Part shown: piece by piece, positions 28,393 to 64,000 of the stretch | How the letters are laid out: each line of letters begins with the position of its first letter | How positions within the stretch are numbered: position 1 is the stretch's first letter | Origin: Myotis daubentonii | Lineage: Eukaryota > Chordata > Mammalia > Chiroptera > Vespertilionidae | Length of the DNA stretch: 64,000 bases | NCBI RefSeq assembly: GCF_963259705.1 | Contig: NC_081840.1 | Coordinates: 6,381,062-6,445,061 of the forward strand | Reading direction: 5' to 3' | The notes under the pieces: generated by a model | Told to the model about the DNA's origin: nothing | Databases searched by the model: none | What the model saw: the letters and a program-made list of their open reading frames with translations, nothing else | Translations under genes and position numbers: made by a program

Positions 28393-28431
28393 AATGAATG
28401 CACAAATGATTCAATTAAAGGAATGAGAAAC
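28393..28431 (+). ncRNA. shortened host-gene exon relic at the 113/114 boundary
   Basis: Acceptor GCATTTACAG, exon AATGAATGCACAAATGATTC, donor-like AAC/GTTAGTTA. Short and with a weak donor. Confidence 0.35.
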
Positions 28432-28492
28432 GTTAGTTACACTCAAAGGAATCACTTCTGACTTGGTGGTTTGTCATGGGTCTTAACTCTTA

Positions 28493-28701
28493 AAAAAGTA
28501 TATATATTTATTGATTTTAGAGAGGAAGGGAGAGAAAGAGAGAGAGATAGAAGCATCAGTGATAAGAGAGAATCATTAATTGGCTGCCTCCTGCACAACC
28601 CCTACTGGGGATTGAGCTTGCAACCCAGGCATGTGCCCTTGACTGGAATCAAACCTGGGACCCTTGACCCTCTATCCAGTGGTCAAACCAGCTAGGGCAT
28701 A
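28493..28701 (-). mobile_element. Ves SINE, antisense, exact target duplication
   Basis: Reverse complement of a Ves SINE (GGCTGCCTCCTGCACAACCC, AAACCTGGGACCCTTGACCC). GGGTCTTAACTCTTA flanks both sides (28478-28492 and 28702-28716). Confidence 0.95.
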
Positions 28702-29011
28702 GGGTCTTAACTCTTATTGAAAGGAAATAAATAGTTACATATACAAATAAAATGAATTAAGGTTATGTGTGGGCCAATTTAGCACATCTGAGGTCAACTA
28801 AGGAGGAAAAAGTAAGACCATTTATTCATTTTAAGAGTTAATTATTCAATTAATTAATGTAAAATGTATTATTCAATTTTAATTCTGAGTCACAGTTCAT
28901 TTTAACCTCCCTTTACAGAGACACAATTTAGTCAGCTTCAATTGCAAACGGGGTTAAAGTTTACATTCATTTATATAGCAAGCATTGGTCAATTAATGAA
29001 AGATATATATA

Positions 29012-29094
29012 TCTCTACAGAATTACTTCCTACTGACAATATAGGATTTATATAAGTATATCTATACTGTTAGTGGGAAGTAATTCTGTAGAGA
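29012..29094 (+). other. near-perfect 83-nt hairpin made by inverted duplication
   Basis: Arm 29012-29037 (begins TCTCTACAGAATTACTTCC) pairs with 29069-29094 over 26 positions with two G-T wobbles; pairing continues inward to 29045/29061 with one mismatch, leaving a 15-nt loop. The right arm is collinear with normal array sequence (GGGAA..TTCTGTAGA in module A flanks elsewhere, e.g. near 39030), so the left arm is the added inverted copy. Size and shape would suit a pre-microRNA; no proof of processing. Confidence 0.8.
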
Positions 29095-29220
29095 AATACT
29101 GGAAATATTCAAGGATCTAGTTTCAAGTTTTATGGCCTGTAGGCATTTATTTTATTATTATTAGTGGATGAATTAATTAGTAAAAACATGTAGACACAAT
29201 TGAAGATAATGAGGGCCAAT

Positions 29221-29285
29221 CTGGACCAATGGTGATGACTGGTGGAGTATGAGTCATGGGTGATGAATACTATGTGCCTGTTTAT
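29221..29285 (+). pseudogene. SNORD114-like copy lacking the D box
   Basis: CTGGACCAATGGTGATGACTGG has a usable C box GTGATGA (29232-29238) and C-prime GGGTGATGAATAC, but sequence after TATGTGCCTG jumps to TTTATTTCAC, deleting the D box and the 3' stem. Confidence 0.7.
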
Positions 29286-29540
29286 TTCACAAAGTATATA
29301 ATCTAATCTGTACCTTCTATTGAAATATTCCTATGGACAGATGTTAGGAATATTCAAGGATTTTGTTCTTAGTTTTGTGTTCATGATATTTAATTTTATT
29401 AATATAAATGGAAAGAATTAATATAAATATATGAATAAATAGGGTGAAGCATTGTCCAATTATGTAAATATTTGGTGAGGCCAGAAATACTATTACTATA
29501 TATTAAAAACACTGAAGTTCATTAAGAAATAAATGTCTTT

Positions 29541-29756
29541 GCCCTGGCTGGTTTGGCTCAGTGGATAGAGCGTCGGCCTGTGGACTGAAGGGTCCCACGT
29601 TCGATTCCGGTCAAGGCATGTACCTTGGTTGCGGACACATCCCCAGTAGGAGTGTGCAGGAGGCAGCTAAATCGGTGTTTCTCTCTCATCGATATTTCTA
29701 ACTCTCTATCTCTCTTCCTCTCTGTAAAAAATCAATAAAATATATTAAAAAAAGAG
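29541..29756 (+). mobile_element. Ves SINE with exact target duplication
   Basis: GCCCTGGCTGGTTTGGCTCA to the poly-A tail, flanked by AGAAATAAATGTCTT on both sides, splitting a module C relic. Confidence 0.95.
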
Positions 29757-29987
29757 AGAAATAAATGTCTTAAAGGCATTACCTCTTTATCTAAGGAATG
29801 ATACCTACACTACAAATAACAGTCCATGCTCTTATTTGTTCTGTGCCTTCTTCAACATTGTTTTCTCAAGAAAAAATATCATAATTTAATACAGACTTAA
29901 ATGTCTAATAAAATGATAGGAGGAATTCAGGATAAATGAAGAGAGTATTTTCATATTTTAATCATTTGTTCTGCTTTGTACTCTCAG

Positions 29988-30072
29988 AATGATCGTCCCC
30001 TGCAGATTTAATCATCTTTCATGGTCAGAAGCTCTCTAGTTACCTCCATGTGTTAGCAGCATGGAGACTCAT
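29988..30072 (+). ncRNA. host-gene exon
   Basis: Acceptor TTTGTACTCTCAG, exon AATGATCGTCCCCTGCAG to GGAGACTCAT, donor GTGAGTATAGTC. 85 nt. Confidence 0.75.
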
Positions 30073-30409
30073 GTGAGTATAGTCACACACTTTGTCTTGA
30101 TTTGGGTAGTTCTTAAAGGATATTTCCTGTATTGTTAAAAGAATTAAAGAAGGCCAACCATGGCCCAATCATAAATATGACATTCTTATGATGTCATAGT
30201 AACATATGCCAGATGAACATTGTGCTGATTAATCAATATTTGCAAAATATCGATTAATAAATGATGTAATCAAGCTGATAAATGATCACATGGCTATAAA
30301 ACTTAAAAATATTGTTAAATTTTTGTGATTTATCTATTTATTTATTAGTGAAGTGATAAATTAATTAATAAAGAAAATTAGAAATTAATGGAGAAGAAGA
30401 GGGCCAATT

Positions 30410-30484
30410 TTGGACCAATGATGACGACTGGTGGGGTATGAGTCATGGATGATGAATACTGTATGTCGGGACTCTGAGGTCCAA
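30410..30484 (+). ncRNA. SNORD114: SNORD114 C/D-box snoRNA, intact
   Basis: First complete copy of the right half, 338 nt after its donor site. Stem TTGGACC/GGTCCAAC, C box ATGATGA at 30418-30424, internal GTATGAGTCATGGATGATGA with C-prime, D box CTGA at 30474-30477, guide ATGTCGGGACT. Known: this family has no established rRNA or snRNA target and is expressed from the maternal allele, strongly in brain. About 75 nt, typical for it. Confidence 0.93.
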
Positions 30485-30777
30485 CACGAAAAGAAATCTA
30501 ATCTATTTCCTCTGTTGGAAATGACCATAGTGACAGATGTTAGTAACATGCAAAGATTATGTTCTTCACTTTTTTGTTCATGGGTAATGATTCTATGAGC
30601 ATAGATTAGCGAAAGAACTAAAAAACACATACAAGTAAATTAATATAAATGTGTGAAGCATTGTAAGTTATGAAAATGAATAAATATTTAAGTTACTGAG
30701 TAAGTTAAATGCAGAAAGCAAAGTCAGTGCAGAGAAAGTCTCAACTTTTCCTCTCCCTCTGTGCTTGCACTTCTCAG

Positions 30778-30861
30778 AATGGATGCACTGGACCTGAACT
30801 GCAGATTCTCCCATGGTCTCAAGATGTCTGGTGTCTGTCTGTTTGGTGCATAGAAACAAAT
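30778..30861 (+). ncRNA. host-gene exon
   Basis: Acceptor GCTTGCACTTCTCAG, exon AATGGATGCACTGGACCTG to GAAACAAAT, donor GTGAGTTTT. Confidence 0.78.
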
Positions 30862-31169
30862 GTGAGTTTTGTGAACATATACTCTGCATTTGAAAAGTGT
30901 GAATTATAACCAAAGAAAGCCAACCATGGTCCATTATTAAATATGGAATTGATATGTAACATTATAGTGATTGATCCCTATATGAAACTTTGAGGATGAT
31001 TAATGAAAGATATATTGATGTCATAAATGATCCTATAGACAGATATAGGACTAGTACAGGCTCATGCTCTTAAGTTTTGTTGTGCTTCATATTTTTTTAT
31101 TTTATTACGATCAGATAAATTGATGAATTAATTAATAAACATAAATGAGAGTGGATAAAAAAGGCTAAC

Positions 31170-31240
31170 CCTGGACCAATGATGACTACTGGTGGCGTAT
31201 GAGTCATTGATGGTGAATACTCTTTAACTCTGAGGTCCAA
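31170..31240 (+). ncRNA. SNORD114: SNORD114 snoRNA, short guide region
   Basis: CCTGGACC/GGTCCAAG stem, C box ATGATGA at 31179-31185, C-prime TTGATGGTGAATAC, D box CTGA at 31230-31233. The segment before D is ACTCTTTAACT: the usual TATGTGTCTGG is partly deleted, so the guide differs from sister copies. Only 185 nt from the next acceptor. Confidence 0.9.
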
Positions 31241-31424
31241 GATACCTTTAGCTGAGGAAGTTATAGATGATATAAATAATGAGCAATATTGGGGTTAGTG
31301 GAAAGTTTAATAAAATTACCCCAAAATAATATATAACTTAATCACCAAATAATTTAATGTAAATGCAAAGACCAATAGAGAAAATATCTCAGTCGTGTTG
31401 TCTATTCTGCTTTCTACTTTTTAG

Positions 31425-31504
31425 ATGGACACACCCAAGCTGAATAAAGCATTATGCCTTGGTCAGTGATCTTTCTATTGGCCTGTAGGAGCATGAAGAC
31501 CAAC
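31425..31504 (+). ncRNA. host-gene exon
   Basis: Acceptor TCTACTTTTTAG, exon ATGGACACACCCAAGCTGAA to GAAGACCAAC, donor GTGAGTAAT. Confidence 0.75.
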
Positions 31505-31833
31505 GTGAGTAATTTTCAATGTCTTCATCTTACTTTGGGTGGTTTGTTTGGGGTTTTCTCTGTGTATATATTTTTAAATATTCAATATAAGAAAAAAATA
31601 CCAACTATGTTCCGATAATTAAGTTGGAAATATAATGTTGACTAATCTAACTTTTAAATTATGAAGATGATTAATAAAATTCAATTAGCCAATGATTCTT
31701 AAAAAATGATAAAGATTTTAAGGCTATTGTTCTTGATCTTTTGTGATTCATTGATATGTATTTAATTATTATTAGTCGATTGATGAATTAATGCATAAAC
31801 ATATAGATGAGAATGAAGAAAAGGGGGCCCGAA

Positions 31834-31910
31834 ACTGGACCAATGATGATGACTGATGGCATATGAAGCAAGTACTATGATTGCTATGTGTCTGGAAGTC
31901 TGAGGTCTAA
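31834..31910 (+). ncRNA. SNORD114: SNORD114 snoRNA, variant with ATATGAAGCAAG
   Basis: ACTGGACC stem start, C box ATGATGA at 31843-31849, D box CTGA at 31900-31903, 3' stem GGTCTAA (G-U pair). ATATGAAGCAAGTACTATG replaces the GTATGAGTCA block, a variant shared only with the copy at 34000, so these two are recent sisters. Guide GTGTCTGGAAGT. Confidence 0.88.
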
Positions 31911-32202
31911 AACAAAAGAAAATCTAATCTATTTCCTCTATGGCAATTGTTCCTATTGGTCTTGTAATTTTGGATTAATATATTTCTAGTATATTACTAT
32001 TAATATCAATGAATCAATGATAAAAACCAACAAACAAATATATCACTAAGGAAACAAGGCTTCACTAAGTTGGTCTTATCAACTATGAATATATATGGTG
32101 AGGCAAGAAATATTAATATAAACTGAAAATTCTGATAAGAAATAATGGACAAAGGGCATTATTTATCTAAGGAGTCATATCATTTATTTATATTTATGTT
32201 TA

Positions 32203-32229
32203 TATATGTGTATAAGTTATACACATATA
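32203..32229. repeat. 27-nt AT-rich palindrome
   Basis: TATATGTGTATAA and its exact reverse complement are separated by one G, within an AT microsatellite-like stretch. Confidence 0.85.
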
Positions 32230-32342
32230 ATAAATATATATGTATATGCCTTTATGACTGAGTAACTGAAATAACGGGGAAAAGGGTCACTTTAGAGGGG
32301 TTCTCAATTTTTTCACCTTCTGCTCTATTCTGTATTCCTTAG

Positions 32343-32426
32343 AATGGACGCATTTGAGCAGATTGAAGCATCATCCGTGGTCACGTGCTCTACGGTTGCC
32401 TGTTTGTGTAGTGAGTAGAGACCAAT
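32343..32426 (+). ncRNA. host-gene exon
   Basis: Acceptor TGTATTCCTTAG, exon AATGGACGCATTTGAGCAG to GAGACCAAT, donor GTGAGTAGT. The following unit lost its SNORD114 module: module A (32515-32592) runs into a module C end near 32765-32785. Confidence 0.8.
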
Positions 32427-33163
32427 GTGAGTAGTACATTGAAACAGTTCATGTCTCTGAGATTTTTTCTCTCTCAAATATTCATGTGTCATCAAGAATG
32501 TGAAATATAGTCCAAGATGCCAACTATTGTGAATTATAAATATGGGATTGGTCTGAAGATTATCTTTATTAATCATCCATGAAACATTGATGATAATTAA
32601 AGAGATATATCAATAATATGGCAAATGGTCCTATATGTGGAACATTTATTACTCTTATTCTTGTTTTTTATGAATCATATAGTTTTAAAATTTAATATAA
32701 GTGAATCAATAAATTAATAAATGAACTTATGCAGATAAGAATGGTGAAAAAGATGAATATTTATTGAAAATACTGAAGTTCATTAAGTTGTCATCTTAGA
32801 CTGCATTATTTGTTTAAACGTATTTATTGAATTATTAAAAAATATTAAACATAATAAAAAATTAACTATGGCCAAATGATAAGAAACATTATATTATTAA
32901 TCAATAATGTACAGCATGGAGGTTGATTAATGAAAAAAGAATTAGCCTCTGTGGGAAATGATTCTATAGACAAATGTGAGAGATATCCAACAATTTTGTC
33001 CTTGGATATTGTGAGTCATGTGTTCATTTAATTATTATTAATGAATTAATGATTTATTTGATACAAATGTAGAAATGAATGGATTTTTATTATTTTATGC
33101 ATGGATTAATTTCAGAATCAATGTACAAATTTTAAAAATCAGAGATGAATAACATGCACTCTT

Positions 33164-33372
33164 TAAAAAATTTTTTTTAATTGATTTCAGAGAGGAAGGG
33201 AGAGAAAGATAGAAACATCAATGATGAGAGAGAAAAGATAATTGGCTGCCTCCTGCACCCTCCTCTCCCCCCCACTGGGGACCAAGCCCACAACCAGAGC
33301 ATGTGCCTTGATCGGGAATCAAACCTGGGCTTCCTGATTCAGAGGTCGACACTCAACCACATCATACACTTG
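33164..33372 (-). mobile_element. Ves SINE, antisense
   Basis: TTGATTTCAGAGAGGAAGGG, GGCTGCCTCCTGCACCCTCC and AAACCTGGGCTTCCTGATTC are the reverse complement of a Ves tail, core and head. Confidence 0.92.
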
Positions 33373-33598
33373 TCATCTGTGGTGAACGAATAAAAAAATA
33401 TTCCAGTTTATTGAAAATACTGTATTCCGTTACCAAAAATAAATGGTTCCAGTACCTTCCATCTTCGATCTTATTCTGGTCACTAAAAGCATGATATTAA
33501 GTATTAGCCCACATAACTATCTTCTAAATGATTGACTAAATGTAAGGTGCGGTAATGTTTCCGTCCTGTTATCATCTCCTTTGCTTTGCACTTCTCAG

Positions 33599-33669
33599 AA
33601 CGAAACCACCTGAAGGGGACTCAGCATCTGTTGTGTTCAGAAGCTCCATGGAGCGGCATGAAGGCCAGT
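33599..33669 (+). ncRNA. host-gene exon
   Basis: Acceptor TTTGCACTTCTCAG, exon AACGAAACCACCTGAAGG to GAAGGCCAGT, donor GTGAGTAATAATC. 71 nt. Confidence 0.75.
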
Positions 33670-33999
33670 GTGAGTAATAATCAAAGGTCTTGTCTTGGTC
33701 AGGGAAGTTTGTTTAGGGATATCACTGTAGTAATTTAAAAAGTGGAAAAAAGACCAACCATGGTCCAATGATGAAACTGGAAATGTACGAAACATTATGT
33801 TGACTACCTTACCTTTGGAATAATGGGGATGATTAATGAAAAGAGGTATAATCAGTAAGCCATTGGTCCGAAAGGAGTGTGACAACAATCTTTAGGCTCT
33901 TGTCCTTGCATTTTTGTGATTCACACACGTGTTTAATTATTAGTAGTGGATTGAACACTTAACAACTGTAGGTGAGAATGAGGAAAAAGAGACCCCAAA

Positions 34000-34075
34000 C
34001 TGGACCAATGATGATCACTGATGGCATATGAAGGAGGTACTATGATTGCTATGTGTCTGGAAGTCTGAGGTCCAA
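34000..34075 (+). ncRNA. SNORD114: SNORD114 C/D-box snoRNA, intact
   Basis: CTGGACC/GGTCCAAA stem, C box ATGATGA at 34008-34014, D box CTGA at 34065-34068, guide GTGTCTGGAAGT. Sister of the 31834 copy (shared CATATGAAGGAGGTACTATG-type middle). The preceding module A (33755-33838) also keeps a perfect ATGATGA but no D box. Confidence 0.92.
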
Positions 34076-34562
34076 AACGAAACAAAATCTAGTCTGTTTC
34101 CTCTCTCATTAGGAATATGCAAGGAAATTGTTGTTGTCATGTTGGATTCATGGATTTCTAGTATATTACTATTAATGTCAATGAATCAATGATAGAACCA
34201 ATAAACAGATATATCACTAAATAAAACAAGGATGAAGACTTATCAAGTATATATATAGTGATGCAAGAAATACAGTCAACATAAAATGAAAAACTGATGT
34301 TAAGAAAGAAATGGACCAAGTGCATTACCTCTTTTCTAAGGATTATATGAACACTGACACTGAGAATTAATATACAGTTTAATTAGCCTGTGTCAGTCTT
34401 GAGTTGACGATGTTAATTTTTAATATGTATATTTATATTTTATATGTATGTGTTCTGAAGAAGTGAATACCTAAATAACTGATAAAATGAAATGAGAAAG
34501 AAATTGACTAATGGAGAAAAGGTTTCAATTTTTAATTATCTGCTCTGTCTTGTGCTCCTCAG

Positions 34563-34645
34563 AATCAACATGCTCAAGCTGACTTAAGTGTTTTCCATGG
34601 TAACAAGATCTATGGTTTCCTCTGTGTAAAGCATTGAGATGAAAT
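34563..34645 (+). ncRNA. host-gene exon
   Basis: Acceptor TTGTGCTCCTCAG, exon AATCAACATGCTCAAGCTGA to GAGATGAAAT, donor GTGAGTAAAG. Confidence 0.78.
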
Positions 34646-34862
34646 GTGAGTAAAGGTTACAGTTCTTGTGTTTGTTTAAGAATTTTTTAAAAGGGTATTC
34701 ATTGTATTGCTAAAAGTGTGAAATGAAAGCCCCACACCGACCACAGGAAATGATAAATAGGAGATATTATGAGGCATTATAGTTACTAATGCAGATTTGA
34801 AATATTGATGGTAATTAATGAGAGAGAGAGAACAATGAGGATGAGGACAAACAGGCCACAGC

Positions 34863-34940
34863 GTTGACCAATGATGACTGTTGCTGGAGGAAGAGTCACG
34901 GAGATGATGAATACAATGTGTCTGAGACTCTGAGGTCCGA
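34863..34940 (+). ncRNA. SNORD114: SNORD114 C/D-box snoRNA
   Basis: CGTTGACC start and GGTCCGA end can pair CG...TTG loosely. C box ATGATGA at 34871-34877, C-prime GAGATGATGAATAC, D box CTGA at 34930-34933, guide TGTCTGAGACT. Module A before it is largely deleted, so it lies only 217 nt from its donor. Confidence 0.88.
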
Positions 34941-35368
34941 TAAAGAGAGGCATCGTCGAGTGCCTTTGAACTGATCCTATAGACAGATATTAGAGAATTA
35001 AAAGGGACCATTTCCTTGGTTCATTTTCATGAATTTTGATCCCATTTTAATAAACGGTTCAAAAAGAACCAATGAATAAGAATAAATAAGATGAAGAGGA
35101 TGAGACAATAAACATTTCAAATGCTTATTGAAAATACTGTCATTCATTAAGAAATGTAAATGGTTCAGTTGCCTTCCCTCTTTGGTTAAGAATGATACAG
35201 ACGGTAAATAATAGTCCAAGTTTTTAATTCGTGGTCTGTGTCAAGTTTGATATTGTTTGGTTTGTTCATGAGTACATATTATATCCTTGAGTGACTGGCT
35301 AAGTGGAAGGTGATGTGTGCCTCAGTCTCTCAATTTCGTTACAATCTTCTCTGCTTTGTATTCCTCAG

Positions 35369-35443
35369 CATGGACACGCTGTAGCTGACCGAGCCCTGGG
35401 CCATCATAGGAGCTCCACTGGTCGGCCCTCTGTCGAGGTGCAT
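35369..35443 (+). ncRNA. host-gene exon
   Basis: Acceptor TTTGTATTCCTCAG, exon CATGGACACGCTGTAGCTGA to GAGGTGCAT, donor GTAAGTCATAGCC. Confidence 0.75.
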
Positions 35444-35785
35444 GTAAGTCATAGCCATGCTCTTCTCCTGGTTCAGATTGTTTGTTTAGAGTATTCACTG
35501 GAATGCTATCAAATGGCATTAAATATGTTCAAAGAAGACTAGTCATGCTCGCATAAGAAGTATGGAGTTGACATGAAACTTGATGTTGATTAATGGGTAT
35601 TTGTATCAATGAAGCTGATTAATTACATAGGCATATTCATTGAGGCAAATGCTTCTATAGATAAAGATTAGAGATATTGAGAGACTTGTCCTTGAGTATT
35701 TTTTATTCACAGATGTGTTTATTATTAGTGAATTGACAAATTGTTCAGTAAACAGGTATAGATGAGAATGAAGAAAAGAATTCCA

Positions 35786-37554: not shown

Positions 37555-37632
37555 AATCATGGATGAATAATAAAGAGGTTACACTGAAGAAAGTACATTG
37601 ACTAATCCATATACTCAACACTGAGGTTCATT
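37555..37632 (+). pseudogene. module A relic with intact CTGA
   Basis: CCAATCATGGATGAATAATA to ACTCAACACTGAGGTTCATT; D box CTGA is retained but the C box is not. Example of the upstream snoRNA-like module. Confidence 0.5.
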
Positions 37633-39790: not shown

Positions 39791-40111
39791 GTGAGTTATA
39801 GTCACATTCCTTGATGAGGCTGGTGGTTTGCCCAACGGTATTTATTGTATAAAAACCTGTGAAATATAATCACAAAAGTCCAACCATAGACTACTTATGA
39901 AGCTGGTATTGATAGCATGATTTGATGAATTGATACATGAATCATTGAGGCCAAATACAGAAAGAGATCTAATCTCTCTAAGAAATAATTCTATAGGCAG
40001 AGGTTAGGGAGTTTCAAGAAACTTGGGTTTTTACCATTGATTAATTTACTTTGTGATTATTAGTGAATTATTGAATTAATCTCAAAAAGGTGAAGAATAA
40101 AAGGGCAAAAC

Positions 40112-40190
40112 CTGGAATAATGTTGGTGAGTGGTGCTTATGAGCACGTACAATGAATATTATGTGTCTGGAACCCTGAGGTGGTGCAGCA
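40112..40190 (+). pseudogene. SNORD114-like copy, C box lost
   Basis: CTGGAATAATGTTGGTGAG lacks the C box; CAATGAATATTATGTGTCTG and D box CTGA (40175-40178) remain; the 3' stem reads GGTGGTG. Confidence 0.68.
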
Positions 40191-40633
40191 CAAAAGGAAT
40201 CTAGTCCACTCCAGTTGTTTGAAGGGAACGTAGACACATGTCAGGAATATAGAAGATCATTTTCTTGGGCTTGTGGCCATGTATTTTTAACATTATAAAT
40301 TACAGAATAAATGAACAAATAAACAAATGGAAAAAGATGAAGAGGACGAAGCTTTATTTATTATTAAAATATCTAATAAATAAAAATGATATTAATATAA
40401 GTTGGAATGAATAGTAAATACACCAGGTGTATTACATTTCGACGAAGTATGATATATACTATAGATAGTGTTAAGAAATAGTTAAAATTTTGACAATTAA
40501 TTTTTTAAGAGAAGGATAAGTATATATTACTATTTGAAATAATTACCCAAATAACTGTGTATGTGAATGGTGGATGGATCAATAGAGAAAAATGTCTCAA
40601 TCTTTTTATCACCTTCTGCTTGGTACTTTTCAG

Positions 40634-40708
40634 AAGAGATGGAGCTGATTTCAGCTTCTGCTGTGATCAAGATGGTCATGTTGCCTCTGTGTCAAGAAAG
40701 AGACTAAC
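40634..40708 (+). ncRNA. host-gene exon
   Basis: Acceptor TTGGTACTTTTCAG, exon AAGAGATGGAGCTGATTTCA to GAGACTAAC, donor GTGAGTAATG. Confidence 0.75.
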
Positions 40709-41057
40709 GTGAGTAATGAATAGTCCAAGATGTTATCTTGGTTCAGGTCACTCGATTAAGAGTATGCACAGTGTCATTAAAATTATTAAATTAATTAAAA
40801 ACTTAATTATTGTCCAAGCAATCAACGTGATATGGAACATGTTGGTTAATCCATAATGTAACATTGAGGTTGATTAATAGAAGAGATGTAATCTATATGG
40901 GAAGTGATTGTTTAGGCTGATGGTGGGGACATTCAAGGACCTTGCTCTTTGGTTCTTTTTTTGTGTGAATAATGTACTTATTTTGTTATCATTGAGTAAT
41001 TAGTGGTTTAGTGATACCACTATAGACTTGAATGATCAAAAAAAGAGAAACCCCAAC

Positions 41058-41119
41058 ATGGACCAGTTTAGGTGAGTCATGGATGATGAAAAGAAGTGTC
41101 TGAAACTCTGAGATACAGC
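41058..41119 (+). pseudogene. SNORD114-like copy with C-box segment deleted
   Basis: ATGGACCAGTTTAGGTGAGTC shows loss of about 15 nt with the C box; the internal ATGATGA (41083-41089) and D box CTGA (41108-41111) remain; 3' end GATACAGC no longer pairs. Confidence 0.7.
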
Positions 41120-41606
41120 ACAATACATACTTAGTCATTCCTCTTTGGAAATGATGCTATAGACAGATGCCAGAAATAAACAAAGGTCATGTTCTTATTT
41201 TGAATTTGTAGATTTAGATTTATTATTATTAATGAATCCTGGATAAACTCATCAAATAAAAATAATACTTAGATAAAGGAGAAAGTGAGGCATTGTCCAA
41301 TTATGATCATGTTGTGATATAAGACATACTACATTAAATTAAAAAAAAACATCGATGCCCATTTAGATATAAATTGATCAAAGGTTTTACTTCTTTGGCC
41401 AAGGATTATGTAGATGAGGATAATTAAGTCAATTTTATTCTTCTAGATCAGTTTCAAGTTTGAGGTTGGTCCCGTTGTCAATAGGTAAAAATACATAATG
41501 AAGAATTAACAAATACCTACCCAACTTAGTAAATGATAGGTGGGAAGGAAGTTCCCATGTAGATGAATTCTTTTTTTTATTGACTGCACTGCTCTGTGCT
41601 CCTCAG

Positions 41607-41692
41607 AATGGACCCACTCGAGATGACGTCAGTGTCTTCCCTGGCCTCCCGCCCTCTGTTCGCCTCTGTATGTCAGGAGCATGGACCCCATT
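41607..41692 (+). ncRNA. host-gene exon
   Basis: Acceptor CTGTGCTCCTCAG, exon AATGGACCCACTCGAGATGA to GGACCCCATT, donor GTGAGTGATGG. Close to the exon consensus. Confidence 0.82.
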
Positions 41693-41790
41693 GTGAGTGA
41701 TGGTCAAAGTTCTTGTGTTGGTTTGGGTGAGAGTGTGAATTAATGAATTAATAAACAAGTTGGAAATGAACAAAGGGAATGTGTGCTAGT

Positions 41791-41868
41791 CCTGGACCCG
41801 TGATGAGAACCAGTAGCATTTGAGGAGAGGATGATAAATTTCAATGTGTCTGAAACTCTGAGGTCCAG
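41791..41868 (+). ncRNA. SNORD114: SNORD114 C/D-box snoRNA, intact
   Basis: CCTGGACC/GGTCCAGCG stem, C box GTGATGA at 41800-41806, D box CTGA at 41858-41861, guide TGTGTCTGAAACT. The middle reads CATTTGAGGAGAGGATGAT. Module A is missing here, so it lies 98 nt from its donor. Confidence 0.92.
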
Positions 41869-42237
41869 CGCAGAGCAACCAGTGCCTTCTCTTCGTTTGA
41901 AAGGATCCCATAGACAGAACTTAGGAATATGCAAGGATGGTTTTGGTCTTAGGGTTTATTTTATTCTATTATTATAATTGGATAAATGTAATAATCAATA
42001 AAAAACATATAAATAAGCATGAATGAAGTATTGTCCAATTATAAAAATACATTGTGGGGTAAAGAGTACTATTAATAAATTTGGACTGTTAAGTGCTAGT
42101 CAATGTTCATTTCCTAGGTGAGGGACAAGTTCTAAGTTGTTTATTTCCTTAGTAGAAATTGAAATAAATGTACTCTAGATTAATGAGTGACTAAATCACT
42201 AAATTTTTTTATCATTGCTGTGTTCTATACTCCTCAG

Positions 42238-42322
42238 GAAGGACACATTTGGGCTGATTGCAGCATCTTCCATGGTCATAGCCCTGTGGTTGCATCGGTG
42301 TGTGAGGAGCATGGAGAGTCAC
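42238..42322 (+). ncRNA. host-gene exon
   Basis: Acceptor TCTATACTCCTCAG, exon GAAGGACACATTTGGGCTGA to GGAGAGTCAC, donor GTGAGTAGTGG. Confidence 0.78.
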
Positions 42323-42533
42323 GTGAGTAGTGGTCAGTGTTCTTGGATTGGATTGGGTGTTTTAAAAAAATTCTTTTTATTATTAAAAGTATTAAATATA
42401 ATCAAAGAAGCCCAATCATGTCAATATCACATGTTACTTATATGAAACCATATGATGACTAATTTACATATGAAACACTGAGTTCAGTTAATGAAAGAGT
42501 TTGGTTTCAGTGGAAATGATTCAATAGATGGAT

Positions 42534-49221: not shown

Positions 49222-49239
49222 AATATCTACATTATGAAA

Positions 49240-53548: not shown

Positions 53549-53586
53549 ACTAGTCCACTCCCCACGTGTCAGTGGATCCTCCAGAC

Positions 53587-55726: not shown

Positions 55727-56061
55727 ATAGATGTCAGGATCAATACAAATCAATACACAGGTCATGGTTTTGTACTGATTTCATTGATATACCAATAGAT
55801 ATTTTATTAATAGACTGATAGAAGTATTAAACAAATAGTTAACTATTTAAAGAATTAGGATGAAGAAATACATAACCATGAATGTATATGGTCAGGCAAA
55901 GGATATTATCAAAATTGAAAGGACATATTAATTAAGAAAACAATATAGCTGTGAATTTCATCTTTGGTTAAGAATCATATAGACATTGATTAGTATGAGT
56001 CTATTATATTGTTCTGGGTCAGTGTCAAGGTTGAGTTTTTCACCATATTAGGATAAATATA

Positions 56062-56191
56062 CAGGGTGTCCCAAAAAATGTGTACACACACTTTGGAGAA
56101 TTTATAAAGGCAATGTTTATTAAAATGCATTTCATTTTCAAAATTGAGCTATCAGCTGTTAAAGTATGTATACATTTTTTGGGACACCCAG
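56062..56191. mobile_element. mariner-type MITE, second family
   Basis: CAGGGTGTCCCAAAAAATGT and the inverted ACATTTTTTGGGACACCCAG, flanked by TA; 130 bp. Same family as 58230-58355. Confidence 0.92.
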
Positions 56192-56300
56192 TATATACAT
56201 TAAGATAAAAGAAGAAATATCTAAACCCTGAGTCTATGAAACGTGGTCAGCAGGGATCAATGGCCATTAGGTCTTACATTAAATGTCTAGGGATATTTAG

Positions 56301-56681: not shown

Positions 56682-56755
56682 ATAGGATCAGTGATGACGA
56701 CTGGTGGCAAACGAGCCACAGAGATGACTACATGTCTGCAACTCTGAGGTCTATC
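56682..56755 (+). ncRNA. SNORD114: SNORD114 C/D-box snoRNA with compensated stem
   Basis: C box GTGATGA at 56691-56697, C-prime GAGATGACTAC, guide TGTCTGCAACT, D box CTGA at 56744-56747. The stem is ATAGGA against GTCTAT in place of TGGACC/GGTCCA: a base on each side changed and pairing is kept. Confidence 0.88.
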
Positions 56756-57192
56756 ATAAAAGAAACCTAGTTTGGCCTAAGTGTTCATTCATTTACATCC
56801 TATTATAATTGTATAAATGAGAGAATCTGTAAACAAATTATAAGCAAAGATGAATGTCGTGACATTTTATAACCACTTATTGTAAAAATACGTGATTACG
56901 CCACAAATGACTATTGATACATTATGAAAACCCTGAAGTTTAATTAGAAGTAAATGGTACATGACTGCTACCTGTATGGCTAAGGATGACTTGAATAGTA
57001 TGATTCACAGTGTTCAGATTCTAGGTCAGTGGCAAGATCAACGTTGTTTGTTTTCTTAAGAGAGAAAAAAATTTATACCAAATTAGTGACTGCCTAAGTG
57101 CCTTGCGAACTCAAAGGTGAAGAGCAACAATCAATGGGGAGGTTTTCTCACTTTTTTTTTTTTTATCATCTGTTCAGCCTTTTATCCCTTAG

Positions 57193-57283
57193 AATAAAGG
57201 ACAAATTCGACCTGCTTTAGGGGTTCTTCCTTCACCATGAGCCATAGGATTGCATCTCTGTTTTTTGGAGCATGGAGACCAAT
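57193..57283 (+). ncRNA. host-gene exon
   Basis: Acceptor TTTTATCCCTTAG, exon AATAAAGGACAAATTCGACC to GGAGACCAAT, donor GTGAGTAATAATG. 91 nt. Confidence 0.75.
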
Positions 57284-57534
57284 GTGAGTAATAATGAAAG
57301 TTCTTGTCTTTTCTGGTATTTGTTGTGAATAATTGCAACATTAATCGTTTTTTGATTAATTCATATGTGCAAAACACAATAATCAACAATGGTATCTTGT
57401 TGTGAGAATGATTCCAGTTAAATTCTAAGAATGTCTAGTTATATTCTAAGGCCTTGTTGGTTTTTAAGTTATAATTAGTGAATTCATGAATTAATCAATA
57501 AACAACATAGAAATGAATGAAGACAACATGGTCT

Positions 57535-57612
57535 TCTGGATCAATGATGATACCTGCCGGCGTTCTGAGTCACCATGACAAATAATGCATGTCTGAGACG
57601 CTGAGGTCCACC
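57535..57612 (+). ncRNA. SNORD114: SNORD114 C/D-box snoRNA, intact, close to acceptor
   Basis: TCTGGATC/GGTCCACC stem, C box ATGATGA at 57544-57550, C-prime worn, guide TGTCTGAGACG, D box CTGA at 57601-57604. Unlike its sisters, which lie about 430-490 nt before the next exon, it ends 78 nt before the acceptor at 57690 because most of module C is deleted. This matches the 70-80 nt spacing of efficiently processed intronic C/D snoRNAs. Confidence 0.93.
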
Positions 57613-57690
57613 TCAGAAGCTGTGAGGTCTTTCTCTTCCTGCAAAGCATGCCTCATTTTATTATCACCTGCTTTGCTCTTTATGCCTCAG

Positions 57691-57776
57691 AATGGACGCA
57701 CGCGACCTGACTTAGGCATCTTCCCTGGTCCTGAATGTTCTGGGTGCATCTATGTTGTAGGAGCATGGAGACCCAC
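57691..57776 (+). ncRNA. host-gene exon
   Basis: Acceptor GCTCTTTATGCCTCAG, exon AATGGACGCACGCGACCTGA to GGAGACCCAC, donor GTAAGTAATATC. Very close to consensus. Confidence 0.85.
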
Positions 57777-57864
57777 GTAAGTAATATCAATATTTTAGAT
57801 TGAATGGCTTGTTTTATGGTATTCACTGTATTATTCAACATGTTAAATGTAATTAAAGAATATG

Positions 57865-58215
57865 TGCACCCCTATGTGCATAGCAGTGTTATTTACAATA
57901 GCTGAGATCTGGAAACAGCCCAGTGCCCATCAGTAGATGAGTGGATAAATAACCCATGGTACACTTACACAATGGAATGCTATGCAGCTGTAGAAATGAA
58001 GGATCTATTACCCTTCGAGATGGCGTGGAGTGACCTGGAGATTATTATGCTAAGCAAAATAAGTGAATCAGAGAAAGACAATATCACAGGAAATCACTTA
58101 TATGTGAAATCTAATGAGCAAAATAAACTGACCAGTAAAATAGAACTAGTGACATGGAAAGATGGAACAGACTGACGAATCTCAGAGGGAAGGGGGCATT
58201 CAAAGAAATAGTAAT
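57865..58215 (+). mobile_element. LINE-1 3' fragment
   Basis: GCAGTGTTATTTACAATAGC, ACACTTACACAATGGAATGC, GACATGGAAAGATGGAACAG; 3' end truncated or ended near 58215. It lies where module A and the SNORD114 copy would be, so this intron has no snoRNA. Confidence 0.88.
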
Positions 58216-58229
58216 TAAATAAATAAATA

Positions 58230-58355
58230 CAGGGTGTCCCCCCAAAATGTATACACACTGATAGCTCCATTTTGAAAATTGTACATATTCTTAAAAACAC
58301 TGCCTTTATAATTATTCAAAGTACGTGTATACATTTTTTGGGGGGGGAATACCCT
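58230..58355. mobile_element. mariner-type MITE, second family, copy 2
   Basis: CAGGGTGTCCCCCCAAAATG and the inverted TACATTTTTTGGGGG..ACCCT ends, TA at both sides. Confidence 0.85.
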
Positions 58356-58676
58356 ATAAATATAAATATGAAGGTGGTGAAACTTTGTCCAATTTTAAAA
58401 ATATGTGTTTAGATAAAAAGCTATTAATAAATGTATTAGAAACAAATATCTCTTAGTATGTAGGTACAAAGTGTTATTCTTTGACTAAGTATGATATAGT
58501 TATTGATAAGTAATAGTCAATATTCATATTTATCTCTCCCTTGCAACATTGATATTGTTCATTTACTTCTCAATTCATTACTTACTAAATGGCTGACTAA
58601 TAAAAAGGTGACATTCTAGAATTAATGAATTAATATCTGAACGTTATAAATTATTGTTTTCTCTTGTACTCCTTAA

Positions 58677-58762
58677 AATCCTTGCATGTGGGTGATTTAA
58701 GCGTGCAGCCATGATCATAGGCTTTGAGGCTGAATCTATGCATTAAAATCACGGAGCGCAAT
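58677..58762 (+). ncRNA. host-gene exon, acceptor lost
   Basis: TGTACTCCTTAA/AATCCTTGCATGTGG: AG changed to AA. Donor GCGCAAT/GTGAGTACC intact. Confidence 0.6.
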
Positions 58763-59113
58763 GTGAGTACCATAGTTCTTTTCTTGGTTTTGTTGTTTTT
58801 TTAAAAAAGGTTTTCACCACATTATTAAAAAGTCTGAAAGAAGATCTCTGATCGCCAAACATGCTAATAAAGAATAATGTTGCTAATATGAAGTATTATG
58901 TTAACCTTTATAGGAAATTAATTAACCTTTGAGGTCATTTATGAAACATATATATTGTTTATGGAAAGTAATTTAAAGACACATGTTAGACATATTTAAG
59001 ACTCTTGTTTCAAGTTTTTGTGACTCCTTAAGGTATTTATTTTGTTATTCGTAGTCAATTGATGATTTATTCAATATATATGTGTAGACATGAGTGAAGA
59101 CAATGAGGCTCAA

Positions 59114-59165
59114 CCCTAGATAAATGATGATGATTAGTGTGCGTAGGAGTCCTTTTCCCCCCATT
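59114..59165 (+). pseudogene. truncated SNORD114-like copy
   Basis: CCTAGATAAATGATGATGATT keeps ATGATGA at 59124-59130; after GCGTAGGAGTCC the 3' two-thirds is deleted into CTTTTCCCCCC. Confidence 0.68.
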
Positions 59166-59577
59166 TGAGGTGATCCCATAGGGAATGGCTAGGTATCGAA
59201 AGGATCATGCTCTTGGTCTTTGTATACATGAATATTTAAAAATTTCATTAGAAATGGCAACATAAACAAATATATAGTCAATACATATGAAAAGGGTGAA
59301 ACCCTCATCATTGTTAAAAATATATAGTGGGATGGAAAATAATACCACCCCGTGTATATGTCCTTGAGTAAGTATGAAAAACAGTGATAAATAGTAGTTG
59401 GTTACCAATGGAGTCAGTTTCAACTTTGACATTTGATTTATTGAGAGAAAAATAAATAAATATGACCAGACATTAATAAATGCTTAAATAACTATGCAAA
59501 TAAATAGTGGAAACTCTGAATCCACGGAGAGAAAGTCTCAACATTTTTATAATGTTTCTTTGGCCATTTGTCTCCCG

Positions 59578-59647
59578 AATGGATCCTAGAACTGATTTTG
59601 GCTTCTGTAGTCTGTCATGTTCCCTCTGTGTCTGAGAAGCGGTCAAG
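59578..59647 (+). ncRNA. host-gene exon, acceptor lost
   Basis: TGTCTCCCG/AATGGATCC: CAG changed to CCG. Donor GTCAAG/GTACCT is weak. Confidence 0.5.
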
Positions 59648-59965
59648 GTACCTAACTGTCATGTTGTTATCCTGGAGTGGGTCGTTTGTTTAAGGATATT
59701 TACAGTATCATTTAAAGACATTAAATTCATAAAAAGTTAGCCATGTCTCACTGTTAAGTATGACATGAAACTTTATGTTGATTAATTGATAATGTGCAAG
59801 ATTGGGGCCCATTAATGAATGAAGTATAGTCTATGTGGGAAATGATTGTGTAAAGTGACCTCATTCTTAAGTTTTTATAATCCATGAATTGTTTTTATTA
59901 TTATGAATGAATTAATCATTTTATCGATACAAATGTAGTAACAGATATGAAAAATAGACCAAGTC

Positions 59966-60040
59966 ATGGATCAATAATGATTCTTGGTGGCGTAGGAGTC
60001 ATGACAATGAAAATACATGTCTGAGACTCTGAGATCTAGA
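59966..60040 (+). ncRNA. SNORD114: SNORD114 snoRNA, C box ATAATGA
   Basis: TGGATC against GATCTA, C box with one G to A change, GGAGTCATGACAATGAAAAT, guide ATGTCTGAGACT, D box CTGA at 60029-60032. Stem pairing is kept by a G-U pair. Confidence 0.8.
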
Positions 60041-60509
60041 ACATAGTCTGTTTCTTCTGTTGAAATGGTTTCTATAGAGAGATGTCAGGAATATAGAGAT
60101 CATATTAGTGTATTGATTTCACAGAGATAGATGTGTATTTATTAATGGAATAGTGATAAAACTATTAAATATAAATACACATAAAGAATGAGGTGAAGTA
60201 TTGTTCAATTATGAAAGTTTTGTAGTGAGGTAAAAGGTAGTAATGCCATTGAAAACATTGATTCCCATTAAGAAATTAATGGCTTAATCGGTCACCTCAG
60301 TGACTAAGGATTATATAGATACTGATAAGGAAGTCTATTTTATTCTTCTGGGTCAATCTCAAGATTGAGTTTTTACTTTTCTTAAGATAAAGAATGTATA
60401 TTAATAAAAATTAATACATACCTAAATACTGAGTTAATGAAATGTGTGGAAAGCAAGTATCAATGACAGTTAGTTTAATTTTATTTTTTATCTGCTCTGT
60501 CCTCCTCAG

Positions 60510-60596
60510 ACACTCTCGGGCTGATGTATGCATTATCCATGGTCACCAGCTTTCTGGTTGCCTCTAGTAGGAGGACAGAGATTAATGTGGGTGATA
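60510..60596 (+). ncRNA. host-gene exon
   Basis: Acceptor CTGTCCTCCTCAG, exon ACACTCTCGGGCTGATGTAT to GAGATTAAT, donor GTGGGTGATAG. The next exon follows after only 233 nt; the intron's B module is deleted. Confidence 0.72.
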
Positions 60597-60829
60597 GTTC
60601 GAGTTTTTTTCTTGGTTTCAATGTGTTTTTTTAAATTATTCATTAGAAAGTGCAAAAGATATTTAAGAGGGCAACTCTAGCTCAGTGATAAATATGGGAA
60701 GTTTATTTTATAAAGATAAAAATAAATTTTACCATAAATGAATAAATACCAAAATAATTATGGAAATTATAGATCACTGGAGACAGTGTCTCAATCTTTT
60801 TATCATCTGTTCTGCTTGATACTCTGTAG

Positions 60830-60905
60830 AAACAAAGCACCCAGCTGACTTAAGCTTTCTTCCATGATCAAAATAAGATGTCACTTCTGTTTTCAGAGAG
60901 ACAAG
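60830..60905 (+). ncRNA. host-gene exon
   Basis: Acceptor GCTTGATACTCTGTAG, exon AAACAAAGCACCCAGCTGA to GAGACAAG, donor GTGAGTAGTCATC. Confidence 0.75.
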
Positions 60906-61246
60906 GTGAGTAGTCATCGAGGTTCTTGTCGTGGTTTGGGTCATTTGTTTAAGGTAATAACCTTAATCAAATTCCCACTATTATTAAAAAGTATTAAATA
61001 TAACAAAATGTTATCTATGGCCCATTGAGTAATATAATATGACACATTATGCTGATTAATTGATAATGTTCAACATTAAAGTTGCTTAATGCAAAAGATA
61101 TACTGTATTGGGAAAGATTTCTATAAATAGATTTTAGGGTTATTCAGGGATTTTGTTCTTGCATTTTTGTGAATCATGTGTATTTTATTACTGTCAATGA
61201 ATTAATGATTTAATTGATACAAATTTAGGAAGAAAGGTGGCCTCAC

Positions 61247-61321
61247 ATGGACCACTGATGACGACTGGTTCATATGAGTTATGAATAATGAATAAGATGA
61301 ATCTGGAATTCTGAGGTTTAA
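61247..61321 (+). ncRNA. SNORD114: SNORD114 snoRNA with G-U stem
   Basis: ATGGACC/GGTTTAAC stem relies on G-U pairs. C box CTGATGA (61255-61261, purine lost), C-prime GAATAATGAATAAG, guide GATGAATCTGGAATT, D box CTGA at 61311-61314. Confidence 0.82.
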
Positions 61322-61664
61322 CACAAAATATAATTAGTGTATTCCCTCTGTTAAGAGTCCTATCAACAGAAATATATGAAGATCATGTTCTTATTCTGGA
61401 TTCCTAGATTTAGATTTATTATTATTAACAGATCAATGATTGAATGATTAAACAAATAAAAATAAAGAAAGAAAAGGAAAAGGGTTAATTATTGTCCAAC
61501 TAAGAACTTATGTGATGAGGCAAAAAATATTAATAATAATTGATGCCCATTAAGACATCAATGAATTGAAAGTTTTACTTGTTTGTTTAAATAACACTGA
61601 TGAATAGACACTGATGAATAAAAGTCAGGTTTATTGTACTAGATCAGTTCCAAGTTTGAGGCTG

Positions 61665-61890
61665 TCCTCATTTAAAAAACTAAATTTATTGGGGTGACAT
61701 TGGTCAATAAAATTATATAGGTTTCAAGTGCACAATTCTATGATACATCATCTGTATATTGCATTCTGTGCCGCCCACCCCACAGTCAAAACTTCTGTCA
61801 CCAGATATTTGGCCCCCTTTACCTTTTACTACCCCCATATCCTCTTCCCTTTGGTAACCACCATAGTGTTGTCTGTTGTCCTTTTGTTAA
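61665..61890 (-). mobile_element. LINE-1 3' end, antisense
   Basis: TTTATTGGGGTGACATTGGT, GTGCACAATTCTATGATAC, AGTCAAAACTTCTGTCACC; reverse of the 3' tail at 54915. Confidence 0.8.
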
Positions 61891-62483
61891 GAGAAAAAAT
61901 ATATACATTATGAAAATATAAAAATTAACTATATGACTGAATAAATGAAATGCAGAAAGCAGGACCATAAAGGATATCGTCTCAATTTAAGAAAAAAATC
62001 ATTCGCTCTGTTTTGTTTGATGGGGTTTTATTGACAGATGTCAGGAATACACAAAGATGCTTTATTAAATTTTTGATCTTTGTGTATTTTTATTCCATTA
62101 TTTTAATTGGGTGAATAAAAGAATCCATCAATAAATATATAAATAAATTAAGATGAATGGAGCAAAGCTTTGTCCAGTTGTGAGGGCATGTGATTGCGCA
62201 GGAAATGCTCCGGCGTATTGAACACTCTGATATTATTGAGGAAGTAACTGGTTAAAGGGCGTTTTCTCTTTGGCTGATGATACTACAGACAGTGTGAAAT
62301 AATAGTCCATGCTCTGCGTCAGCGGCAAGAATGATACTGTTTATTTACTTCCAAGAAGATAAAATATTAACCCAAATCACTACCTCCCCGAATGACTGAC
62401 TGAGTGGAAGGTGGGGTGCACAGACCAGTGCAGACAGTGTCTCCCTCTTTTAAAAATCATTTCCTCTGTTCTGTACCCCGCAG

Positions 62484-62559
62484 TCTGGACTCACTCGAGC
62501 TGATTTAAGCATCACGAGCTCCATGGTTATATCTGTGCATTATGAGCATGGAGACCAAT
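62484..62559 (+). ncRNA. host-gene exon
   Basis: Acceptor TCTGTACCCCGCAG, exon TCTGGACTCACTCGAGCTGA to GGAGACCAAT, donor GTGAGTAATAGTC. Confidence 0.82.
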
Positions 62560-62907
62560 GTGAGTAATAGTCACAGTTCCTGTCTTGGTGTCATCGTTTT
62601 ATGTTTTTTTAAAAAATATTCACTGTATCATTTTAAAATTGTGAAATGTAATTATTGAAGGACAGCCCTGGCCCAGTCATAAATATGGGGTTCATAGGAA
62701 GCATTGCTTTGATTAATCCCTAAATGCAACATGGAAGTCGAGTAATGAAAGAGATTTATCGCCATGAGTAATAATTCTATAACAGAAGCTTTATGAATGT
62801 ATCTTACTCTCAAGTTTGTGACTTTAGGTATATATTTTATTATTATTGGTGACCTGATTAATTAACAAAATTCATGTAGACATGAATTTAAAAACTGAGG
62901 ACCATGT

Positions 62908-62983
62908 CTGGATCAGAGGTGACCACTGGTGGCATAGGAGTCATGGATGATGGCTGCTATGTGTTTGGAACTCTGAGGTCCAA
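62908..62983 (+). ncRNA. SNORD114: SNORD114 snoRNA, C box GAGGTGA
   Basis: CTGGATC/GGTCCAAC stem; C box has two changes (62916-62922); C-prime GGATGATGGCTGC; guide GTGTTTGGAACT; D box CTGA at 62973-62976. 3' end perfect, 5' box weak. Confidence 0.8.
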
Positions 62984-63367
62984 CACAATACAAATCTCGT
63001 CTATTGTCATGTTGGAAAAAATCCTATAGATAGATGTTAGAGATATTTAAGATTCTTATTCTTCTAATTTTATGGTTCATGGATGATTATGTTATTATAA
63101 AAGAGTCAATATCAAATAATTAATGATGGAGAGAGTGAGGCATAATCCAGTTATCAAAACATGTGGTAAGAAAGAAATTAATATAATTTGGAATGGATAA
63201 TAAGGGGACAAGGGTGTTACCCCTTTGGCTAGGGATTACAGAGCTATTGATAAGTAATAATCAGTGCCTTGTTTTGGATCAATTGCAAATTCAACATATT
63301 TTTTAAGAGAAAATACCCAACTAGTACCATAAATTAAGAAATGTTAAATTACTGAGTAAATGAAAGG

Positions 63368-63448
63368 CCACTCCTGTGCTGATTTTAACATTCTGCCATG
63401 GCCTCCAACTCAATGGTCATCTTAGGAGTATGCACTTCCAGCATTAAT
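63368..63448 (+). pseudogene. host-gene exon relic without splice sites
   Basis: CACTCCTGTGCTGATTTTAA, TGCCATGGCCTCCAACTCAA and TTAGGAGTATGCACTTCC align with exons, but the acceptor is gone and the donor position reads GCATTAATAA. Confidence 0.55.
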
Positions 63449-63789
63449 AATAGGTGCAGTTCTTGTCTTGGTTGGGACGGTTGGATTGGTTAATGCATTA
63501 TTAATAAGTAGACAGTATAATCAAAGAAGACTAAACATGGCCCATAATGAACATGGGATTAATAGGAATGGTTATATTGAGGCAGCCATATCTGAAACAC
63601 TGATATGTTTCTTAAAACATCCATTCAAGAAACATAATCTAGTGTCTATGGGAAATGATTTTATGAACATTAAGGGTGTCAGGGCTCTTATTCTGAGTTT
63701 CTGATTCATGTATATATCTTTCTTAGTAAGTTGTAAATTAATGAATAGATCAATAGACAAAGAATAAATGAAGACAATGATTCATGTGC

Positions 63790-63863
63790 TTGGACCATTG
63801 GTAACGCCTGGCGGTGCATGTCAAGGATGATGAATAACATGTGTCTGGATGTCTGAGATCTGA
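63790..63863 (+). pseudogene. SNORD114-like copy, C box lost
   Basis: CTTGGACCATTGGTAACGCC has C box TTGGTAA; AGGATGATGAATAACATGTG and D box CTGA (63853-63856) are intact; end GATCTGAC. Last copy in the window. Confidence 0.72.
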
Positions 63864-64000
63864 CACAAAAAGAAATCTAGTCTATTGCTCCTTTAGATAT
63901 GATCCCATAGACAGTTGATAGGAAAATATTCAGTTATCCCATTCTTGTGCTTTTGTAGTGCATGGATAATTATTACAGTGAGCTGATACATGAAGGGTAT

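Follow-up and report, generated by a model that had tools for sequence, protein, structure and literature searches.

A probable four-module structure within the repeat unit of the SNORD113/114 array of Myotis daubentonii

We analysed a 64,000-nucleotide stretch of the Myotis daubentonii genome (NC_081840.1, positions 6,381,062 to 6,445,061 of the forward strand; hereafter the window) which, judged by its sequence and its neighbours, is part of the DLK1-DIO3 domain and holds the SNORD113/114 small nucleolar RNA (snoRNA) array of MEG8. Our principal finding is that the repeat unit of this array is probably a higher-order repeat of four modules, all derived from a single module of about 235 bp, which was amplified and in which the tasks of carrying the exon and the snoRNA became divided between modules. 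We put the probability of this reading at roughly two in three. All of the evidence comes from the sequence of one species.

The repeat unit and the kinship of its modules

A hidden Markov model (HMM) of the unit, grown from 39868-40799 and having 926 match columns, identified 68 stretches in the window, all on the + strand, 51 of which lie at or after 28000. In consensus columns, module A occupies 1-232, module B, with the Rfam snoRNA, 232-468, module C 468-704 and module D 704-926, and the D consensus carries a CTCAG acceptor together with a GTGAGTAA donor at column 845. Some units of the main array lack certain pieces. The main array and the parts of one example unit, the unit HMM match 33746-34725, are as follows.

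28393..64000, + strand: main SNORD113/114 array of ~0.93-kb A-B-C-D units, about 235 bp per module (unit HMM, RF00181)
33746..33985, + strand: module A of the example unit, decayed snoRNA core and spacer (joint AB HMM, 96.7 bits at 33747-33983)
33986..34224, + strand: module B of the example unit, intact-looking SNORD113/114 core and spacer (AB HMM, 123.5 bits)
34001..34075, + strand: SNORD113/114 snoRNA in this module B (RF00181, 76.4 bits, full model 1-74)
34225..34494, + strand: module C of the example unit, decayed snoRNA core and spacer (by position between B and D)
34495..34725, + strand: module D of the example unit, the quarter with the predicted exon and likely a fourth copy (C-D and B-D profile scores, signal in the 3' half only)
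34563..34645, + strand: predicted host-gene exon of the example unit, 83 nt, from CTCAG acceptor to GTGAGTAA donor (splice-site scan)

Near-complete segments, covering at least 75% of their class columns (29 A, 26 B, 27 C and 33 D), were aligned per class with MAFFT and then compared profile against profile, with block-shuffled columns as the null. With 12-column blocks the A-B comparison scored 109.8 (z 21.9), B-C 63.2 (z 13.9) and A-C 47.8 (z 10.2), and for each pair none of 400 shuffles was as good; 24-column blocks gave z values of 10.9, 10.2 and 7.5, respectively, again with 0/400 each. The suggestion of a first-pass annotation of this DNA that modules A and C align to B above chance is therefore borne out. 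The alignments are in register and span the entire module, core and flanks. When the snoRNA core was compared alone in 8-column blocks, z was 9.2 for A-B, 6.1 for A-C and 5.7 for B-C (0/500 each), and in 16-column blocks a single shuffle in 500 was as good for A-C; the flank alone, in 8-column blocks, gave z values of 19.5 (A-B), 5.4 (A-C) and 10.3 (B-C). Consensus identity over aligned columns was 76% for A-B, 61% for A-C, 59% for B-C and 51-55% for the three pairs that include D, figures that are to be read against a floor of 28% from composition alone, which gapped alignment raises.

At E values up to 1, all 113 matches of the joint AB HMM in the window were on the + strand, and it had no match in the reversed window; the single-class HMMs made 0-2 matches on the - strand and 0-2 in the reversed window, each of at most 6.3 bits. 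A module C was also recognised singly:

29440..29533, + strand: module C found by the AB HMM 230 bp past B (8.7 bits, E 0.02)

Four of the eight strings that had been quoted in the first-pass annotation occur exactly 4-12 times and a further one twice, while the start of C and both strings for A have no exact match. We conclude that A, B and C are, with near certainty, paralogues, the snoRNA core included.

The same relationship can be seen in the period of the sub-repeat. Circular self-alignment of the 998-column unit profile gave peaks of 176.6, 104.0 and 179.5 at offsets 250, 500 and 750, the last of which mirrors that at 250. The score at offset 300 was only 14.5; the period is thus about 235 bp, a quarter of the unit, and not the 0.3 kb originally proposed. 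Controls stayed lower, with at most 37.9 for the reversed profile and 58.4 for the reverse complement, and the best score over the scanned offsets for 60 shuffled units had a mean of 37.2 and a maximum of 74.3. When AT-rich columns were masked (71, 204 or 402 of 998), the quarter-unit peak was 146.5, 125.4 and 89.8 and the half-unit peak 100.4, 79.9 and 38.7, other offsets giving at most 25.4 and the reversed and reverse-complement controls at most 47.5. To judge by the pair scores, it is chiefly A-B and B-C that produce the quarter-unit peak. A first ungapped scan of self-diagonals (peaks at 229-247, 469-475 and 708) is not relied on, because the reversed profile scored similarly high.

Retention of boxes and splice sites, and the order of duplications

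To have both exact boxes (C box TGATGA and D box CTGA) is a property of module B only: they were present in 9 of 26 B segments, 0/29 A, 0/27 C and 0/33 D. Likewise, all 24 RF00181 matches above the gathering threshold at 28393-64000 fall in the B position, and no match at an A or C position was found in this region at E values up to 10. By Rfam score and boxes, module B therefore qualifies as a SNORD113/114 box C/D snoRNA and modules A and C do not. The first-pass annotation had regarded the A and C snoRNAs as decayed, which agrees with these counts, and the middle module alone as intact, which is right in that the boxes are confined to B but leaves out that many B copies have decayed too. One stretch in an A position, 37560-37632, weakly matches SNORD112 (27.2 bits, the cut-off being 58); it begins 15 bp from the start of its module, at the place that the snoRNA takes in B. 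Further weak SNORD112 matches were seen at 5801, 11074, 12533, 17830, 21386 and 21843.

The splice sites are kept elsewhere. GTRAG stands at the donor-homologous site in 28/33 D segments, 1/29 A, 0/26 B and 0/27 C, and GT alone in 32/33, 7/29, 12/26 and 0/27, respectively. D has kept its donor in 32, its acceptor in 29 and both in 28 of the 33 segments, with a predicted exon of 53-91 nt. Retention of boxes and of splice sites is thus class-specific. Mean within-class identity was 0.604 for B, 0.587 for A, 0.547 for C and 0.578 for D; the value for B is only slightly higher, pointing to weak constraint on the snoRNA. This agrees with the available excerpt of an account of 14qI/14qII, which describes fast substitution and an antisense element without significant constraint (PMC4063771).

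We built two trees of the 115 segments, one from merged class-wise alignments and one from unaligned segments; the unit HMM supplied the class labels, and the second tree does not depend on class-wise alignment. All four classes were perfect splits in both trees, with supports of 0.86/0.91 (A), 0.73/0.97 (B), 0.95/0.96 (C) and 1.0/0.999 (D). A and B together also formed a perfect split in both (0.976/0.867), and for 114 of the 115 segments the nearest neighbour belonged to the same class. There was no sign of local gene conversion between A and B, identity being 0.504 within one unit (21 pairs) and 0.495 between different units (733 pairs). Because the modules group by position and not by unit, we conclude that duplication within the unit preceded the 0.93-kb amplification, the order that the first-pass annotation had also favoured.

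Upstream of the main array there is a more diverged part:

1..28392, + strand: older, more diverged and broken units with A-B-C(-D) columns in order (unit and AB HMMs, + strand only)

In this part, at a coverage of at least 55%, the nearest array class was the module's own for 11/12 B, 11/15 C and 5/5 D positions, and in a tree the B, C and D labels, though not A, are borne out. The idea that the upstream 28 kb consists of lone 0.25-kb monomers is, given these own-class neighbours, not upheld for the B, C and D positions.

Module D, the SNORD112 locus and the proposed history

A first profile comparison, using the nhmmer unit alignment and 60 shuffles, gave weak scores for C and D (z 2.6 for A-C, 2.4 for B-C, 2.5 for A-D, 3.2 for B-D and -0.3 for C-D). 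After realignment of each class with MAFFT the C scores rose strongly and those of C-D and B-D moderately, and A-D fell to 0.8. It can be seen from the realigned profiles, on which we rely, that C-D scored 38.1 (z 6.9, 0/400; columns 59-224 against 60-231), B-D 32.7 (z 4.2, 1/400) and AB-D 26.1 (z 3.3, 4/400); against the joint ABC profile, D was equalled by 0/2000 shuffles in 12-column blocks and 1/2000 in 24-column blocks. For the D flank (the 3' half) alone in 8-column blocks, z was 7.7 for C-D and 7.5 for B-D (0/500 each) and 1.7 for A-D. The homology of D to B and C is thus confined to its 3' half, the splice donor included, and D is likely to be a fourth copy of the module with an unrecognisable core half. 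Since the exon block is as long as one quarter of the unit and its 3' half is homologous to B and C, a tetramer describes the unit better than the three modules and independent exon of the first-pass annotation.

A similar arrangement is seen at SNORD112, 20 kb upstream of the window, the only SNORD112 match in the 90-kb flanks to pass the gathering threshold. Ahead of the snoRNA come exon-like sequence, a GTGAGTAAT donor at a distance of 108 nt and an AT-rich spacer.

L010:9663-9847: GTGAGTAAT donor and SNORD112

On the + strand of the 40 kb upstream, the GTGAGTAAT 9-mer has a single exact copy. From 62 segments (21 D-A, 21 A-B and 20 B-C) we made an HMM whose phase was shifted to run from exon end through donor and spacer to core. 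It matches SNORD112 in one alignment from -135 to +77, at 19.6 bits and with E 1.5e-5 for the 90-kb flanks, and has no match in the reversed flanks. With the locus given, the SNORD112 flank score was equalled by 1 of 2000 shuffles for the flank HMM, 0 for the D-A flank and 7 for the B-C flank. MEG8 exon 2 lies ~1 kb beyond SNORD112 (L011:793), and no module D match was found for MEG8 exons 1 and 2. What is new here is that, as judged from these alignments, SNORD112 shares with the array the layout of exon end, GTGAGTAAT donor, ~108-nt spacer and snoRNA. On the strength of this layout we favour a module in which an exon end was present originally, and a SNORD112-like founder of the array module is plausible.

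Several results weigh against a four-module unit of this ancestry. The A-D comparison was not significant (17.3, z 0.8, 68/400; flank 27/500), the D core half did not significantly match any other class (z 0.3 for A, 0.1 for B and 2.0 for C, in 8-column blocks; 19/500 shuffles as good for the C-D core), and D against the ABC profile weakened to 27/2000 in 40-column blocks. Only 27% of D segments with the ABC HMM, and only 22% of C segments with the AB HMM, score above the 95% level of shuffles. With 402 columns masked, the half-unit peak of 38.7 lies below the reversed control of 46.1, and the k-mer lag spectrum of the raw sequence has no peak at 235 or 300 bp; raw dot plots, including the self-dotplot at 300 bp that had been suggested as a check, would thus miss the layering, which is visible only in profiles. 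Neither half of the SNORD112 match would stand out in a blind search (core E 0.07, flank E 2.5, in the 90-kb flanks), only the D-A model of the three single phase HMMs touches the locus (E 0.42), and the A-B flank HMM alone gives no score there. Finally, none of seven upstream A-position modules was nearest to array A, six being nearest to B and one to D, so that the A/B split may be younger than the upstream units, or different in them.

2463-7148, 18124, 21684 and 27279: upstream A-position modules

A potential explanation for the weak D scores is that a snoRNA module was triplicated beside an unrelated MEG8 exon and that the trimer and exon were then amplified, the likeness of D being due to chance or to donor-like sequence. 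The non-significant D core and A-D comparisons and the 40-column result are what this account would lead one to expect. Nevertheless, we consider it unlikely, given the C-D score (z 6.9, 0/400) and the flank-only scores of C-D and B-D (z 7.7 and 7.5, 0/500 each), local alignments of D that, at their best, fall within about 23 columns of one register for all three other classes, and a D length of one quarter of the unit. The C HMM also makes six weak matches at D positions in the window (4.1-9.6 bits; the same HMM made one match on the - strand and two in reversed sequence), and SNORD112 has an exon end and donor in the register of the module.

A different possibility accepts four copies but takes them all to have been snoRNA plus spacer, the exon of D arising secondarily as the spacer mutated to GTGAGTAA and an acceptor appeared in the dead core. 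The commonest homologous sites, GTTAGG in A and GTCAGG in B, are a short step from GTGAGT, and the D core is unrecognisable in the half that bears the acceptor. However, exon-like sequence and GTGAGTAAT are already in register at the SNORD112 locus, and the GT that 7/29 A and 12/26 B segments have at the homologous site resembles a decaying donor, so that we think exonisation of this kind improbable. An interspersed element, that is, a snoRNA-derived retroposon landing three or four times in one orientation, has in its favour only that snoRNA retroposons occur in mammals; it is hardly credible in the face of a head-to-tail pitch of ~235 bp on one strand only and at least 24 genome-wide RF00181 matches that all lie inside the window.

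Under the four-module reading, the founder module would probably have consisted of the 3' end of a host exon, a 5' splice site, an AT-rich spacer of ~100 nt and a C/D snoRNA, as at SNORD112. It would have been tandemly multiplied to four, the copies would have diverged, and the block of four would then have been amplified into the array. Within each unit the jobs would have been divided, the exon and its splice sites being kept by D and the snoRNA by B. Since D keeps the exon and splice sites, MEG8 exons would be spliced from D to D, and the intron between them would hold a dead A, a live B and a dead C, A and C acting as spacer. B, alone in keeping the C and D boxes, would be released as the SNORD113/114 snoRNA; it starts about 320 columns past the donor (unit column 845 to about column 241 of the next unit). 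Splicing and release are proposed here from known intronic C/D snoRNA biology, as set out in the accessible part of PMC11028025. For the complete two-layer origin, in which a SNORD112-like locus gave rise to a tetramer that divided exon and snoRNA duties (duplication, degeneration, complementation) and was then amplified, with SNORD112 as the surviving relative of the founder, we would offer even odds.

Two units are short by about one module length. One was identified from consecutive unit matches, 30911-31240 (columns 2-321) and 31246-31565 (columns 570-906):

30911..31565, + strand: short unit without columns 322-569 (248 columns), about one module length

The second, at 40800-42397, is short by 241 columns. 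These deletions are suggestive of unequal crossing-over between modules, B and C in the case of 30911-31565. The other gaps between unit matches are mostly not multiples of the module length.

The locus, related arrays and minor features

Rfam RF00181 (SNORD113) gave 26 matches above gathering in the window, all on the + strand and 24 of them at 28393-64000. In a search of the 2.13-Gb genome, in which 61 candidates were scored, at least 24 matches were found, all inside the window. Pattern scans of a set of viral contigs and a set of genome contigs for stray mammalian DNA gave no match in either. The 40 kb upstream of the window contain mir-433, mir-432, mir-136, MEG8_1, SNORD112, MEG8_2 and mir-370 in that order, and the 50 kb downstream contain mir-379, mir-329, mir-1193, mir-154, mir-368, mir-654 and mir-544 of the mir-379/mir-154 cluster; together the two flanks (90 kb) hold 32 matches above gathering, on the + strand throughout. 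We take this to be the known order of the MEG8/Rian locus, to which the array belongs by its conserved neighbours, and its imprinted status is assigned by synteny. The array spans about -7.1 kb to 64.9 kb in window coordinates, as units with ordered A-B-C columns also occur upstream of 28393, back to about -7.1 kb. The window contains 11 short interspersed nuclear elements, presumably akin to bat Ves elements, and three of these interrupt the main array.

The array has the synteny, the RF00181 family and the tandem intron-exon layout of the SNORD113/SNORD114 [14q(I)/14q(II)] arrays of MEG8/Rian. Accounts of those arrays, in the portions available, describe snoRNA repeats only and mention neither a four-module substructure nor a SNORD112-like layout, and the listed titles and abstract openings of the open-licence literature gave no hint of an internal module in SNORD113/114 units; a prior description is possible. 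Alpha satellite higher-order repeats likewise consist of diverged monomers in fixed order in a unit that is itself amplified. The monomers here differ in being parts of a transcribed gene, apparently with different functions, and we know of no satellite monomers that keep different functions. The rat Bsr / RBII-36 repeats, reportedly described by Cavaille in 2001, are said to form tandem introns with C/D snoRNAs, like the array here, and have a repeat unit of 0.9 kb. That array is rat-specific according to the section seen of PMC11028025, which also reports partial tandem duplications in SNORD115/SNORD116. The SNORD115/SNORD116 Prader-Willi arrays are imprinted tandem arrays of exons and intronic C/D snoRNAs as well, but no four-module unit is described for them in the same section, and the SNORD116 match in the window is at chance level (E 8.3).

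It is an open question how the imprinted C/D snoRNA arrays of eutherians originated, and the literature, in the parts available, recounts their evolution as gains and losses of snoRNAs. In the present array a module, the order of its duplications and a division of labour would be recorded within the unit. If the four-module reading is true, dead copies would explain much intron sequence that seems to serve neither the snoRNA nor splicing, and weak snoRNA-like matches in array introns may be fossils. The layering offers a polarised test in any mammal, by alignment of the quarters and by the SNORD112 donor ~100 nt upstream.

A few further features were noted. Within an A module, 29008-29098 forms a hairpin with sub-threshold matches to MIR5380 (44 against 150 bits) and mir-236 (30.2 against 55), which looks like a small inverted-repeat insertion, and 56058-56195 is hairpin-like with sub-threshold matches to mir-95 (+) and mir-568 (-). 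In the upstream part of the array, a 24-nt exact direct repeat lies at 5218-5241 and again 463 bp downstream, and two alike copies of ~100 nt with a GGCAAAAGTAGGTTTA-like start, presumably mariner-like, are found at 1250-1390 and 1995-2135. Upstream k-mer lags near 463 and 745 had been considered as module duplications and were traced to this one 24-nt match and to the mariner-like end pair.

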